Origin: Sphingomonas abietis
Lineage (GTDB): Bacteria > Pseudomonadota > Alphaproteobacteria > Sphingomonadales > Sphingomonadaceae
Length of the DNA stretch: 64,000 nt
Reading direction: 5' to 3'
Assembly (NCBI RefSeq): GCF_027625475.1
Contig: NZ_CP115174.1
Coordinates: forward strand, 992,001-1,056,000
Shown here: positions 2,988-47,725 of the stretch, piece after piece
Layout of the letters: every line of letters starts with the position of its first letter
How positions within the stretch are numbered: the first letter of the stretch is position 1
The notes under the pieces: model-generated
What the model was told of the DNA's origin: nothing
Seen by the model: the letters and a program-made list of their open reading frames with translations, nothing else
Databases searched by the model: none
Program-made: the position numbers and the translations under genes

Positions 2988-3955
2988 GCCGCGTCCGCCA
3001 TCGGGGCCTTGCCGGCGCGCCGACCGGAAATCGGCGTCGGTGATTCCTGATAGGCCGGCTGGAGATCGAGGCGGGCGACGCGGAGCGCGTTCTTGCCCGA
3101 GCGCTTGACCTCGTACATCAGGCCGTCCGCCGCCTCGACCAGCGCTTCCGCCGATCGGATCGAGCGGCTTTCCACCACCATCGCACCCATGCTGCAGGTG
3201 ACGGCATAGCCGGTCTCGCGGAGGATCTGGCTCATCCGATGGTGCAGCCGTTCGGCCGCGACATCGCCCTGGTAGCAGGTCGGGACCGTCATCAGCGCCA
3301 CGAACTCGTCGCCGCCGACCCGTGCGAACAGATCATGCGCGCGGATCGCCTGGCTGGCCTGCTCGGCGAAGGTGGAGAGCAATCTGTCACCGGCGGCATG
3401 GCCGAAATCGTCGTTCACGCGCTTGAAGCCGTCGAGGTCGAAATAGGCCATCAGCAGGGCATCGCCACGGCGCTGGGCCTGGCTGATCTGGGCCGCGAGC
3501 CGGTGCTGGAAGGCGGCCTTGTTGAGCACCCCGGTCAACGCATCGGTGGCGGCGCTCCACCGGGCCTGATCGAGCGAGCGGCGCAATCCGCTGGCCAGCG
3601 CGACCAGGACCGTCATCGATATCGCACGACCGACCATGTTCCAGGCCAGCGCCGCCGCGGTGATGGTGGACGCCGGGCCGTTGACGCTATGCACCGCAAG
3701 CTGGACGAGCACCGAGATCGCCCCCACCGCCAGCCCCACCCGCTCGCCGATGCACCAGGAGCCGAAGCAGGCGATGGCGAGATAGAAAGCGACCAGGCTG
3801 AACTGCGGGCCGGTCGAGAAATCGAGGACGATGGTGGCCGCCATCGCGATCACCAGCAGCGCCCATGCCCGCGACCGCGGCAGGCGCATCGACGCCTCCG
3901 CCATCGCGGCGAAAAGGGACGATAATTTCGAGGCGGTAGGCGGTTGCCGCAACAC
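2984..3955 (-). CDS. Membrane-anchored GGDEF diguanylate cyclase
   Basis: A 323-residue protein. Residues about 30-125 form several membrane segments (MASE-like sensor region), and the C-terminal half is a GGDEF domain. The active-site GGDEF is intact at about residues 214-218. Five residues before it is an RxxD (RAHD), the allosteric I-site that allows product inhibition by c-di-GMP. It should therefore make cyclic di-GMP from two GTP at the inner membrane. It is the first gene of a two-gene unit with the GAF protein. A PilZ-type c-di-GMP receptor is encoded at 19213-19575. Confidence 0.93.
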   Translation of the reverse strand: MLRQPPTASKLSSLFAAMAEASMRLPRSRAWALLVIAMAATIVLDFSTGPQFSLVAFYLAIACFGSWCIGERVGLAVGAISVLVQLAVHSVNGPASTITAAALAWNMVGRAISMTVLVALASGLRRSLDQARWSAATDALTGVLNKAAFQHRLAAQISQAQRRGDALLMAYFDLDGFKRVNDDFGHAAGDRLLSTFAEQASQAIRAHDLFARVGGDEFVALMTVPTCYQGDVAAERLHHRMSQILRETGYAVTCSMGAMVVESRSIRSAEALVEAADGLMYEVKRSGKNALRVARLDLQPAYQESPTPISGRRAGKAPMADAA

Positions 3956-13465: not shown

Positions 13466-13543
13466 GTTCTCCTGCGCAGGCAGGAGCCCAGGGTTTCAGG
13501 CGAAGCCGCTCTCCAGCTGGGCTCCTGCTTCCGCAGGAGCACG
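13466..13543. repeat. Palindromic intergenic repeat, family B, copy 1
   Basis: The left arm reads CTCCTGCGCAGGCAGGAG then CCCAGGG. The right arm reads CTGGGCTCCTGC and then CGCAGGAGCAC. The two inner halves pair to make a long cruciform with about 30 bp between them. Related copies are at 15773-15850, 42184-42262 and, inside a gene, 46690-46762. It lies between the convergent moaE and oxyR genes. Confidence 0.9.
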
Positions 13544-15772: not shown

Positions 15773-15850
15773 GTGCTCCTGCGAAGGCAGGAGCTCAGGG
15801 ACGCACATGCTCCGCCCGCAGCTCTGGGCTCCTGCGTTCGCAGGAGCACC
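15773..15850. repeat. Palindromic intergenic repeat, family B, copy 2
   Basis: Starts GTGCTCCTGCGAAGGCAGGAG and ends CTGGGCTCCTGCGTTCGCAG then GAGCAC. It has the same arm layout as the copies at 13466 and 42184. It begins 11 bp after the DUF2794 stop, between convergent genes. Confidence 0.9.
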
Positions 15851-40474: not shown

Positions 40475-40783
40475 ATGCAATATGTTCCCATCAAGCCGGC
40501 GACCCCGCCGCAGGTGCCGCTCATCGACAACAGCCTGCTGGGTGAGGTGTTCGTCACCGGCATCGCCGGCTGCGCCAATTTCCATGGCATGTTCGTGGTG
40601 ACGCTGGAGAGCGCGCGGTGCGATCACAGCCATACCCCGCCGCTGGTCGAGCGGATCGTCGTCGCGCGGCTCGCGCTGACCGGCCCGGCGGCGCAGGGGC
40701 TGGTCGCCGGGCTCAACGATTTCCTGACCCAGCAGGGGCTCAGCCCGTCCCAGGCGATGATGGGGGAGGCTACGCGGCAATAG
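40475..40783 (+). CDS. Hypothetical protein, 102 aa
   Basis: A soluble protein (MQYVPIKPATPPQVPLIDN) with two cysteines (GCANFHG, ARCDHSH) and a helical C terminus (LVAGLNDFLTQQG). The ATG at 40475 is chosen because GAAAGGA lies 7 bases upstream; an ATG two codons earlier is too close to it. The 3' end overlaps the convergent permease gene by 14 bp. No family recognised. Confidence 0.55.
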   Translation: MQYVPIKPATPPQVPLIDNSLLGEVFVTGIAGCANFHGMFVVTLESARCDHSHTPPLVERIVVARLALTGPAAQGLVAGLNDFLTQQGLSPSQAMMGEATRQ

Positions 40784-42092
40784 GTGGGGGCGCCGGGGGG
40801 CGGCGATCGGCGCGGCCCGCCCCGGACGCGCCGCGCGGGCGCAGCCAGTAGAGCGGCAGCGCGGTCAGCGTCAGCGCGAGGCCGAGCGCGCTGACCGCGA
40901 TGCCGGCCCCCCACATCGCCCATAAGGTGAAGGGCAGGCCGATCGCGGCGGCGGGCATCGCCACCCGCCGCACCAGCGCGGCGACGCAGAGGGCGAGATA
41001 GAACCACAGGGCCGTCGAGGTGGTCAGCAGCGCCATGAAGGTGAAGATGCCGCCGAGCGACTTGCTGGCATTGCACAGCACCAGCAGGCTGGCGAGCGCG
41101 GTCGACAGCAGCAGCGTCCGCACCGGCACGTCCTGCGCCGAGACCCTGCCGAACCAGCGCGGCAGCAGCCCGGCGCGGGCCATGCCGAGCGGCACCTCGC
41201 TCTGGATCAGGATCCAGCAGTTGAGCGCGCCGACCGCCGAGATCACCGCGAAGGCGGCGACCAGCAATGCGGGGCCATGGCCCCAGAAGGTCTCGATGAA
41301 CAGGGCGACGGGCGCGTTGGAGGCGGCGACGGCGGCGGTGGGCAGCGAGAAGACGATGCCGCAGCTCACCACGACATAGAGCAGCCCGGCGATGGCGGTG
41401 CCGACCATCGTCGCGCGGATCACATTGCGCCCCGGATCGCGGACCCGCTCGGAGGCGACGCCGGCCGCCTCGAAGCCGACCAGCGTGAACATGGTCAGCG
41501 TGATCGCGGCGCCGATTCCGCTCAGCGCGGTCGATGGCGCGGGGAGGGGCGGCAGCTGGCTGCGGCCGGACATGGCGAGCAGCGCCACGATGACGACGAC
41601 CGCGAGCAGCGGCAGCAGCTTGAGCAGCGTCGTGATCATCTGGAACTGCCCGGCGATCCGCGCGCCGGCCAGGTTGAGCAGGGTGATCAGCCAGAGCAGC
41701 GCCACCGCGGTCAGCGCGCCGGCGAGCGGCGTGGTCGCGATCGCCGGCACCAGCACCGACAAATAGCTGGTCGCGCCCAGCGCCAGCATCGCGCTCGCCG
41801 CCCAGCACGACACCCAGTAGCTCCAGCCGTTGAGCACCCCGGGCAGGGTGCCCAGCACCCGGCTTGTGATGGCGACCGCGCCGGTCTCCTCCGGCATCGC
41901 CATCGCCAATGTGCCGAGCGCATAGGCGATGGCGAGCACGCCGCCGATGCTGACGCCCCACGCGATCAGGCCGGTCCAGCCGAACGGCGCGATGTTGGCC
42001 GGCAGCATGAAGATGCCGGTGCCGATCATCCCGCCGACGACGAGCGCAGTGGCGGTCCAGAAGCCGAAGGGTCGTTCCGTCTCGCTGGTCAT
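40770..42092 (-). CDS. APC-family amino acid permease (AdiC-like)
   Basis: A 440-residue carrier with 12 membrane segments and the APC first-helix signature (ALVVGGMIGTGIFMLPANIA), as in arginine/agmatine antiporter AdiC. It is otherwise close to the arginine-ornithine/putrescine branch. Substrate not determined. Convergent with the gene at 40475. Confidence 0.9.
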   Translation of the reverse strand: MTSETERPFGFWTATALVVGGMIGTGIFMLPANIAPFGWTGLIAWGVSIGGVLAIAYALGTLAMAMPEETGAVAITSRVLGTLPGVLNGWSYWVSCWAASAMLALGATSYLSVLVPAIATTPLAGALTAVALLWLITLLNLAGARIAGQFQMITTLLKLLPLLAVVVIVALLAMSGRSQLPPLPAPSTALSGIGAAITLTMFTLVGFEAAGVASERVRDPGRNVIRATMVGTAIAGLLYVVVSCGIVFSLPTAAVAASNAPVALFIETFWGHGPALLVAAFAVISAVGALNCWILIQSEVPLGMARAGLLPRWFGRVSAQDVPVRTLLLSTALASLLVLCNASKSLGGIFTFMALLTTSTALWFYLALCVAALVRRVAMPAAAIGLPFTLWAMWGAGIAVSALGLALTLTALPLYWLRPRGASGAGRADRRPPAPPPIAA

Positions 42093-42183: not shown

Positions 42184-42262
42184 GTGCTCCTGCGCAGGCA
42201 GGAGCCCAGGGCTTCAGACGTGGCAGTGCTTTCACCTGGGCTCCTGCGTTCGCAGGAGCACG
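42184..42262. repeat. Palindromic intergenic repeat, family B, copy 3
   Basis: GTGCTCCTGCGCAGGCAGGA, then GCCCAGGG, a 25-bp middle, then CTGGGCTCCTGCGTTCGCAG and GAGCAC. It lies just beyond the pth stop codon. Same architecture as the copies at 13466 and 15773. Confidence 0.92.
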
Positions 42263-42271
42263 GACGAAGTT

Positions 42272-42841
42272 CTAATCCGCGAGCCGGAGCGCCACGTCGT
42301 TCATGAAGCGGGCATCGTCGCCGGCGGCCAGCCGCGGTGCCTCGGCGGCGATCGCGCCGAGCATGTCGGCCAGCGGGTCGATCTCGGCCTTGGCATAATT
42401 GCCCAGCACATAGCCCGACACCCGATCCTTGTGGCCGGGATGGCCGATGCCGAGCCGGACCCGGCGGAAGGCGTTGCCGATATGCGCCTCGGTGGAGCGC
42501 AGGCCGTTATGGCCAGCGGTGCCGCCGCCGGTCTTCACCTTGACCTTGAACGGCAGCAGGTCGAGCTCGTCGTGGAAGACGGTGACGTCGCCTTCGGTGA
42601 GCTTGTAGAAGCGCAGCGCGTCGCCGACGGCGCGGCCGCTCTCGTTCATGAAGGTGGCGGGCTTGAGCAGCAGGATCTTGTCGGTGCCGACCCGGCCTTC
42701 GCGGACCCAGCCGTGGAAGCCCTTTTTCTCGGGCGAGAAATCATAGGTCTCGGCGATGGCGTCGGCCGCCATGAAGCCGACATTGTGGCGGTGCAGCGCA
42801 TATTGCGCGCCCGGATTGCCGAGCCCGACCCAGAGTTGCAT
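42272..42841 (-). CDS. pth: Peptidyl-tRNA hydrolase
   Basis: A 189-residue Pth. N-terminal LWVGLGNPGAQYALHRHNVGF carries the catalytic His. KPATFMNESG and GGGTAGHNGLRS are the other family motifs. It releases peptides from stalled peptidyl-tRNA. It is downstream of rplY on the same strand, a common pairing. Confidence 0.97.
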   Translation of the reverse strand: MQLWVGLGNPGAQYALHRHNVGFMAADAIAETYDFSPEKKGFHGWVREGRVGTDKILLLKPATFMNESGRAVGDALRFYKLTEGDVTVFHDELDLLPFKVKVKTGGGTAGHNGLRSTEAHIGNAFRRVRLGIGHPGHKDRVSGYVLGNYAKAEIDPLADMLGAIAAEAPRLAAGDDARFMNDVALRLAD

Positions 42842-45551: not shown

Positions 45552-47725
45552 GCGATTTTCTCCTCGAAATCCTCTCCGAGGAAATTCCGGCACGGATGCA
45601 GGAGAAGGCGTCCGCCGATCTCGCGCGGCTGTTCGAGGCGGAACTCGCCAAGTCCGGCCTCAAGGCCCACCATATCGAGAGCTTCGTGACGCCGCGCCGG
45701 CTGGCGCTGATCGCCAAGGGGTTGCCGGCAGCGACCGAGGCGGTGTCCGAAGAGCTGAAAGGCCCGCGCGCCGACGCGCCGGCGCAGGCGCTCGCCGGCT
45801 TCCTCGGCAAGACCGGGCTGACCCGCGAGCAGCTGGTCGAGCGCACCGACGCCAAGGGCAATGCCGTGCTGTTCGCGGTCATCGAGAAGCCGGGCCGCCC
45901 GACCGCCGAGGTGTTGGCGGAAGCGATCCCCGCGGTGATCCGCGCCTTCCCATGGCCGAAGGCGATGCGCTGGGGCGCGGCGTCCTCCTCCACCGAGAGC
46001 CCGCGCTGGGTGCGGCCGTTGCAGGGCCTCGTCGCGCTCTATGGCGACGAGATCGTGCCGATCGAGGTCGCCGGCATCGCCAGCGGGCGGACGACGGCGG
46101 GGCACCGCTTCCTGCACGACGGCCCGGTGACGATCGCCAGCGCCGCCGACTATGCCGAGACGCTGCGCGCCGCGCATGTCATCGTCGATCATCGCGAGCG
46201 CCGGCTGATCGTGCGCGAGGAGGCCGAGGAGGCCGCCGCCACCGCCGGCTTCGTGCTGGTCGAGGATGACGGGCTGGTCCACGAGAATGCCGGGCTCACC
46301 GAATGGCCGGTGCCACTGCTCGGCACCTTCGATCCGGCGTTCCTCGCGGTGCCGCGCGAGGTGATCCAGCTCACCATGCGGACCAACCAGAAATATTTCG
46401 CCTGCACCGATGGCGAGGGGCATCTCGCGCCCGCCTTCGTCTGTACCGCGAACATCCTTGCGTCGGACGGCGGTGCGGCGATCGTCGCCGGCAACGCCAA
46501 GGTGCTGGCCGCGCGGCTCGCCGATGCGCGCTTCTTCTGGGAGCAGGATCTCAAGATCCGGCTTGAGGATCAGGCGAAGAAGCTGAACCAGATCGTCTTC
46601 CACGAAAAGCTCGGCACCGTCGCCGACAAGGTGGCGCGCGTGGCGAAGCTGGCGCGCTGGCTGGTGGAGGAGGGGATCGTGCCATCCAGTGTTCCTGCGA
46701 AAGCAGGAACCCAGGGCCACGAAGCCCAAGCCGGCTCTGGGCTCCTGCTTTCGCAGGAGCACAAGGAAGAATTGGCAAACCAGGCGGAGCTCGCCGCGCA
46801 GTTGTGCAAGGCCGATCTCGTCACCGGGATGGTCGGCGAGTTCCCCGAATTGCAGGGCGTGATGGGCGGCTATCATGCCCGCGCCGAAGGCCTGCCCGAT
46901 GCGGTCGCCGACGCGATCCGCGATCACTACAAGCCGGTCGGCCAGGGCGACGACGTCCCGACCGCGCCGGTGACGGTCGCGGTGTCGCTGGCGGACAAGC
47001 TGGATAGTTTGGCTCAATTTTTCTTGATCGGCGAAGTCCCTACCGGCTCCAAAGATCCTTTTGCGCTCCGGCGTGCCGCATTGGGTGTGATTTCTATCAT
47101 TCTCATTAATGCTCTGCGTTTCCGATTGGAGCGAGTGCTGCTGCAAGCGTGCGGTGACGATCTGAGTAAGTTCGAGAAAGTCTTCTACGAGCACATTGAA
47201 AAACGTCTGGGTGATTTCTTCGCCGACCGCCTCAAGGTCCAGCAGCGCGAAGCCGGTGTCCGCCACGATCTGATCGACGCGGTGTTCGCGCTCGGCGGCG
47301 AGGATGATCTCGTCCGCCTGCTCGCCCGCGTGAAGGCGTTGCAGGCGTTCGTCGAGACCGAGGAGGGGGCCAACCTCCTCGCCGGCTATCGCCGCGCCGC
47401 CAACATCCTGCGCGCCGAGGCCAAGAAGGGCGGCGCGGCGATCGCGCCCTTTGCCGGCTTCTCCTACACCCCCGATGCCGCCGAAGCCGCGCTCGCCGAA
47501 ATGCTCGATACGCAATTGCCGGTCGCGGAAACTGCAATCGAGAGCGAGGATTTCGCCGGTGCGATGACTGCGTTGTCAATAATTCGTCCGACAATTGATG
47601 CCTTCTTCGAAGACGTCACCGTGAATTCGTCTGAGGACATCAAACGCTCCACTCGGCTTGCATTGCTTGAAAAATTGCGTGCTGCGATGCACAAGGTAGC
47701 GGACTTCTCCAAAATCGAGGGATAA
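45548..47725 (+). CDS. glyS: Glycyl-tRNA synthetase beta subunit with in-frame repeat insertion
   Basis: A 725-residue GlyS, longer than the about 690 residues usual for the family. It has [14 protein letters not shown] at the start, [22 protein letters not shown] and the HD-like and anticodon domains after residue 400. Residues about 381-405 ([15 protein letters not shown] and [10 protein letters not shown]) are encoded by a family-B palindromic repeat (46690-46762), so they are an insertion. Two segments, about 47005-47222 and 47515-47725, are lower in GC and use other codons than the rest. The frame stays intact throughout. Confidence 0.95.
46690..46762 (+). repeat. Palindromic repeat, family B, copy 4, inside glyS
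   Basis: GTTCCTGCGAAAGCAGGAAC, then CCAGGG; later CTCTGGGCTCCTGC and TTTCGCAGGAGCAC. Same arm structure as the intergenic copies, here translated in frame as about 25 residues of GlyS. Confidence 0.93.

Follow-up and report, generated by a model that had tools for sequence, protein, structure and literature searches.

The glyS gene of Sphingomonas abietis, which encodes the beta subunit of glycyl-tRNA synthetase (GlyRS), contains a multicopy palindromic repeat that is read in frame, and the point at which this repeat lies, called here site A, holds in-frame repeats of different families in other members of the Sphingomonadaceae. The family of repeat found at site A changes between close relatives, so that a single spot in an essential gene has seen recurrence and turnover of inserts. 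Our starting point was a 64-kb stretch of the S. abietis genome (hereafter the window), in which an initial annotation had described a 73-bp two-arm palindrome at 46690..46762, alike in structure to three other repeats in the window, translated within glyS and adding about 25 residues to the protein. This description was confirmed, with the correction that the element begins one base earlier and is 74 bp long (Table 1).

Table 1. Positions of glyS, its palindromic insert and related features in the 64-kb S. abietis window.
Feature	Position	Strand	Remarks
glyS, glycyl-tRNA synthetase beta subunit, 725 aa	45548..47725	+	TIGR00211, 722 bits, residues 3-723
F1 palindromic element, site A of glyS	46689..46762	+	74 bp, two hairpin arms, inverted order
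Left hairpin arm of glyS F1, TTCCTGCGAAAGCAGGAAC	46692..46710	+	arm pattern match
Right hairpin arm of glyS F1, CTCCTGCTTTCGCAGGAGC	46742..46760	+	arm pattern match
Insert-type tail, 14 residues (GlyS 406-419)	46763..46804	+	L409 replaces D/S/N/T of insert-free alleles
Site B of glyS, after RRAANIL	47411..47479	+	no repeat at this site in the window
Further F1 copy	13466..13542	+	no two-sided coding signal
Further F1 copy	15773..15849	+	no two-sided coding signal
Further F1 copy, between minus-strand ORFs of 440 aa (40770-42092) and 189 aa (42272-42841)	42184..42261	+	

The glyS gene, which at its start overlaps the stop of glyQ, gives a single match within the S. abietis genome (one contig, 4.43 Mb). 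The arm pattern of the repeat, which we assigned to a family named F1, occurs 16 times in the window (eight arms, each found on both strands), compared with a mean of 0.69 and a maximum of 4 in 100 shuffled sequences; the other three copies in the window are those listed in Table 1. The in-frame peptide of 25 residues covers GlyS codons 381–405, and the segment running from the LVEEGIV motif to the KADLVT motif is 41 residues long, versus 14 in relatives that have no insert, G005 among them. As the annotation had anticipated, close relatives (G001, G004 and G005) lack the additional residues and copies of the repeat are found elsewhere in the genome (51 match rows, both strands counted). Judging from the open frame, the insert is presumably translated into the mature enzyme.

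Alignment with phmmer places site A at residues 379–383 of chain 7yse_C, in E. coli GlyS numbering. The HD domain of GlyS spans residues 341–540 and has a degenerate doublet, Ser393–Lys394 (PMC8464048). On this alignment, site A is predicted to connect two helices of the degenerate HD domain, about ten residues ahead of the doublet, and the earlier idea of a surface loop is compatible with the match to GlyRS chains of known structure. The added peptide would probably form a loop together with a short N-terminal extension of the next helix, leaving catalysis intact.

Of the F1 copies in the S. abietis genome, 21 with two arms were measured: the glyS copy is 74 bp long and the other 20 are 76–78 bp, with the best genomic copies matching the glyS copy at 79–82%. 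A test based on GC content by codon position found both flanks to show coding signal, in one frame, at 1 of 25 F1 places, namely glyS, so entry of F1 into genes of this genome is rare. The annotation's broader suggestion, that the repeat can enter coding DNA and be tolerated there, thus stands in part: a palindromic repeat does lie in frame in an essential gene, but the pattern is not that of a single insertion by one element and F1 is rarely found in genes. RAYT (a Y1 transposase, PF01797, which moves GTAG REPs) was rejected as a candidate mover of F1, as there is no PF01797 match in the S. abietis genome; matches are present in 5 of 14 control genomes.

The glyS copies of F1 in the window, L058, L062 and L295 (here and below, numbers with L denote loci and those with G genomes) are all 74 bp long. 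As this length is found only within glyS and is absent from the 20 other two-arm copies in the genome, exchange seems to connect some glyS alleles. In the genome of L058 (Sphingobium limneticum), F1 is scarce (five match rows). The window allele may have come from Sphingobium: the 74-bp length is common to glyS copies only, but the window insert matches its best own-genome copy (88.7% identity) slightly better than it matches L058 (87.8%).

GlyS sequences were aligned from 60 genomes, including S. abietis, plus 80 named loci, a set that is biased because it comprised the best matches to an insert-carrying query and one of the search patterns overlapped the insert. After exclusion of a duplicate of the window (L025_G000), two genes with a broken frame (G016 and G003), three fragments (G036, G037 and G054) and rows identical over the last 400 residues, 129 rows remained, in which the stop-free frames are partly a matter of construction, as open frames had been chosen. 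From LVEEGIV to KADLVT, insert-free genes have about 14 residues, for example KGADPDLAEQAARL, and insert-carrying genes have 35–67, the DNA of which consists of palindromic repeats of different kinds. Fifty-three rows carry a repeat family at site A, seven have short scar-like loops and 69 have neither; L058 and L068 (Sphingomonas montanisoli) are carriers available in culture. We sorted the 53 inserts by arm motif plus eye into seven families of our own: F1 (three rows), F2 (16), F3 (nine), F4 (nine), F5 (ten), F6 (five) and F7 (one). Placements made by eye include L061, L097 and L101 in F3, although the motif scan put another family first, L034_G030 in F6 (three mismatches, F4 tied) and L065 in F2 (two mismatches), as well as further ambiguities among F2, F4 and F5. 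Single-linkage clustering merged all 53 inserts and was of no use for sorting.

Searches of 589 kb of sphingomonad sequence matched 52 of the 53 inserts to DNA outside glyS, compared with 26 of 159 control glyS segments of equal length, some of the matching controls lying near site B. Folding energy proved too blunt a test for palindromes because the segments include the native tail—35 of these 53 inserts and 18 of the 36 in the second set described below fell under the first percentile of controls—and matches outside glyS were therefore used instead. The F2 insert of G009 has 29 match rows in its own genome and 7, 2, 2 and 2 in four congeneric genomes.

As an unbiased counterpart, 119 Sphingomonadaceae genomes were drawn and searched with an insert-free query; 115 gave a match and four did not. 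Matches at glyS fell into two pieces in 45 of the 115: all eight of these that had already been read carry an insert, and 36 of the 37 fetched in addition have one at site A (G101 was not counted). Inserts at site A are thus present in at least 44 of 115 genomes of the family, with G099, a weak match, left uncounted. Each of the 36 newly read inserts is divisible by three and stop-free, and 32 match DNA outside glyS. This sample overlaps the named loci, with the same insert peptide in L275/L061, L277/L080 and L289/L092.

Within the samples drawn, site A inserts are limited to this family. None of 24 genomes from other families of the same order has an insert of comparable size at site A. From a class-wide draw of 96 alphaproteobacterial genomes, 76 had a glyS match, 74 of them outside the family; in 73 of the 74 the match ran through site A as a single piece, exceeding the query by no more than about 12 residues, and in the remaining one (G206) it ended just before site A.

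Turnover within the family was assessed on a rapid maximum-likelihood GlyS phylogeny built without the variable sites. Parsimony required at least 52 changes for all states, 28 for presence or absence and 29 among families, and a single clade of insert rows was rejected (p-AU 4e-44; the group was defined with the tree already in view). Simple vertical inheritance of one insert is thus rejected. Close rows differ in what they carry: F5 in L055 and nothing in G005; F1 in the window, F2 in G009 and a short tRNA-derived loop in L056; F6 in L111 and F4 in L117; F3 in L097 and F5 in L116. In L083, by eye, the element of L094 has a further hairpin nested within it. Long recombination tracts across site A are not supported, as the 20-codon glyS windows on its flanks stay similar (75–98% identical in the pairs examined).

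Neighbouring genes served as controls. Internal inserts of at least 12 residues were scored in the named loci described above, to which the window added one row, and were seen in 0 of 79 rows for glyQ and in 1 of 71 for ppdK. In G009, a slightly looser form of the F1 test placed coding on both flanks at 2 of 21 F2 places, one being glyS and the other in what we take, from its motifs, to be a MiaB/MtaB-like gene. A search for that gene in 49 genomes, in which 6 of 12 loci tried gave the segment, revealed F6-type inserts in G030 (L319) and G010 (L322) in the same loop as the F2-type insert of G009 (L197). So glyS is not the sole target of translated repeats, but it is by far the strongest seen.

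Repeats are not all that site A takes up. Loop A of L065 starts with the 25-base 3′ end of a tRNA-Met (CAT) and that of L056 with the 25-base 3′ end of a tRNA-Arg (CCG), each a perfect match to a tRNA gene found elsewhere in its own genome; the loops of L098 and L280 resemble these, and a search for the exact tRNA source of the L098 loop found none. The material entering site A is thus not always a precise element.

We consider it probable, with some reserve, that a tolerant link at site A repeatedly captures REP-like DNA, which is filtered for frame and turns over fast. The HD-domain helix link of Sphingomonadaceae glyS would tolerate extra residues, and genomic repeat DNA would be captured there through ectopic copying or template switching. 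Out-of-frame captures would be lost, GlyRS being essential, and alleles could later give way to others, receive nested elements, shrink to short scars or pass from one species to another; the 74-bp F1 of the window would be one such captured allele. Fold tolerance, capture by ectopic copying and exchange between species are steps that we infer from the comparisons above. Several points count against this reading: tolerance alone leaves unsaid why site A of glyS collects repeats and other loops do not; the F4 insert of L081 is nearly single-copy in its own genome (four match rows); the shared 74-bp F1 makes some alleles look exchanged; and a changed tail residue is common to the insert alleles, which is unexpected if insertion was wholly independent.

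Site A might instead be a targeted hotspot, at which a hypothetical sphingomonad agent, for instance an integrase, a homing element or a site-specific nuclease, cuts glyS; repair would then take in whatever genomic DNA is available, and the resulting allele would be protected from recutting. Such an agent would suit the hitting of the same point in many lineages, the restriction to one clade (no split match among the 74 genomes outside the family), the variety of captured material, tRNA 3′ ends included, and the presence nearby of a hypervariable tract at residues 487–556. We nevertheless think it unlikely, given that insertion points scatter over a few bases (F4 occurs in two phases, by eye) and that site B of glyS is similar in behaviour, as is a second gene in three genomes.

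The tail that follows the insert bears on how far the insert alleles share a history. The tail reads (L)ADLAEQAARL. Its first position is occupied by L in 57 of the 60 alleles with an insert or short loop (34 of 36 in the second set), whereas 64 of the 69 insert-free alleles have D, S, N or T there. Residues of these four kinds are typical of helix N-caps, and their replacement by L suggests that the insert probably extends the following helix. The shared change also argues that insert alleles are to some degree of common origin, or have been exchanged, and speaks against wholly independent insertion. An unusual tail, LAQLAYDAARL or similar, occurs in L055, L080, L098 and L294, each with different inserts. 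All this, like the shared 74-bp F1 allele, would be expected had one old ancestral insertion made a long-loop allele with a changed tail that was later subject to repeat-for-repeat replacement by recombination between palindromes, to loss and to transfer of short glyS tracts between species, with few or no fresh insertions into insert-free genes. That history seems to us a little more doubtful still: the insert rows do not form a single clade, and sister species alternate between insert and insert-free states while flanking identity remains near normal, so any exchanged tract would have to be very short. Repeated capture at a tolerant link remains the reading we prefer.

Two other parts of GlyS are variable. 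Site B is a second place of in-frame insertion (examples are L066, L080, L083 and L128) and is at least 36 residues long in 46 of 129 rows; in several relatives these long forms are plainly translated repeats, and in others they are a conserved non-repeat TGEEDPL segment. The hypervariable tract at residues 487–556 (47006–47215) has sharp edges, after LADKLD and before FFADRLKVQ. Among 32 close pairs with DNA identity of at least 88% over residues 1–360, 16 lose at least 0.2 in codon identity across this tract, even at residues that both share, and its median codon identity is 0.63 (32 pairs) versus 0.80–0.85 in other tracts. The 16 pairs without a drop fall among L071–L113, one part of the tree, and a close partner exists for few rows. 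GC content goes down to about 0.49–0.51 in the tract. The pattern resembles replacement of a block, or hypermutation confined to the region, around a conserved 10-residue motif.

A more speculative thought, which we hold to be improbable, is an arms race in which some agent attacks glyS or its product near the HD domain and the gene responds by admitting random DNA, in frame, at both insertion sites and by replacing residues 487–556 as a block; were it true, an essential synthetase would be behaving as a hypervariable target. Very improbable, finally, is selection for the hairpin or peptide itself, by which an mRNA stem would tune GlyRS translation, or an HD-domain interaction would be altered, and the gain of any palindrome favoured: this would accommodate the many gains of unrelated palindromes alike in structure and the stronger folding of inserts relative to control glyS segments (median −0.61 versus −0.40 kcal/mol per base), but 69 of 129 rows lack an insert, short loops and tRNA pieces also fill site A and any REP is expected to fold strongly.

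Palindromes within reading frames are already known. In Rickettsia, palindromic repeats termed RPEs lie in frame in protein genes (Ogata et al., 2000, 2002, as summarised in PMC10969869). The F1 of glyS is likewise a palindromic repeat in frame within an ORF, its translation here being read from the open frame. RPEs differ, by that account, in being spread over many unrelated genes per genome. We found coding on both sides at 1 of 25 F1 places in S. abietis and 2 of 21 F2 places in G009, and the glyS system concerns one site in one gene, occupied by seven repeat families (on our own sorting) across a bacterial family.

A second comparison involves E. litoralis and S. alaskensis, both of which are sphingomonads. 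Intragenic REPs and REP dimers of the CGTC and GTAG superfamilies code for 20–30 amino acids, and they have been described in tRNA synthetases of these two species, the synthetase gene not being named in the relevant section (PMC3733652). The same section reports different REPs at about the same site in recB of two Xanthomonas species, and mentions no glyS hotspot, family-wide turnover or tRNA pieces. The core of the F2 insert at site A in G009 starts with CGTC and ends with GACG, as in CGTC REPs, whereas the F1 of the window starts with GTG and ends with CAC and so lacks the CGTC tag. In literature searches that paired palindromic repeats with glyS, with glycyl-tRNA synthetase or with sphingomonads, none of the matches listed reports a family-wide glyS hotspot, and the one at site A is apparently new.

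Site A amounts to a natural repeated experiment in repeat DNA becoming protein, with insert-free sister species as controls, in which the rate of gain and loss, the route of capture (at which the tRNA pieces hint) and the consequences for the enzyme are directly testable. A caution also follows for GlyS alignments and trees of sphingomonads, which contain non-homologous segments.

Sequences that match the site A insert also occur just upstream of the glyS start in L057, L080, L081, L092, L098 and L117 (at about 3360–3498). At the other end of the gene, the last 200 bases of glyS in the window (47525–47725) have a GC content of about 0.51, versus 0.71 just upstream, and a drop of at least 0.10 at this end is seen in 7 of 129 rows, including the window and G009.
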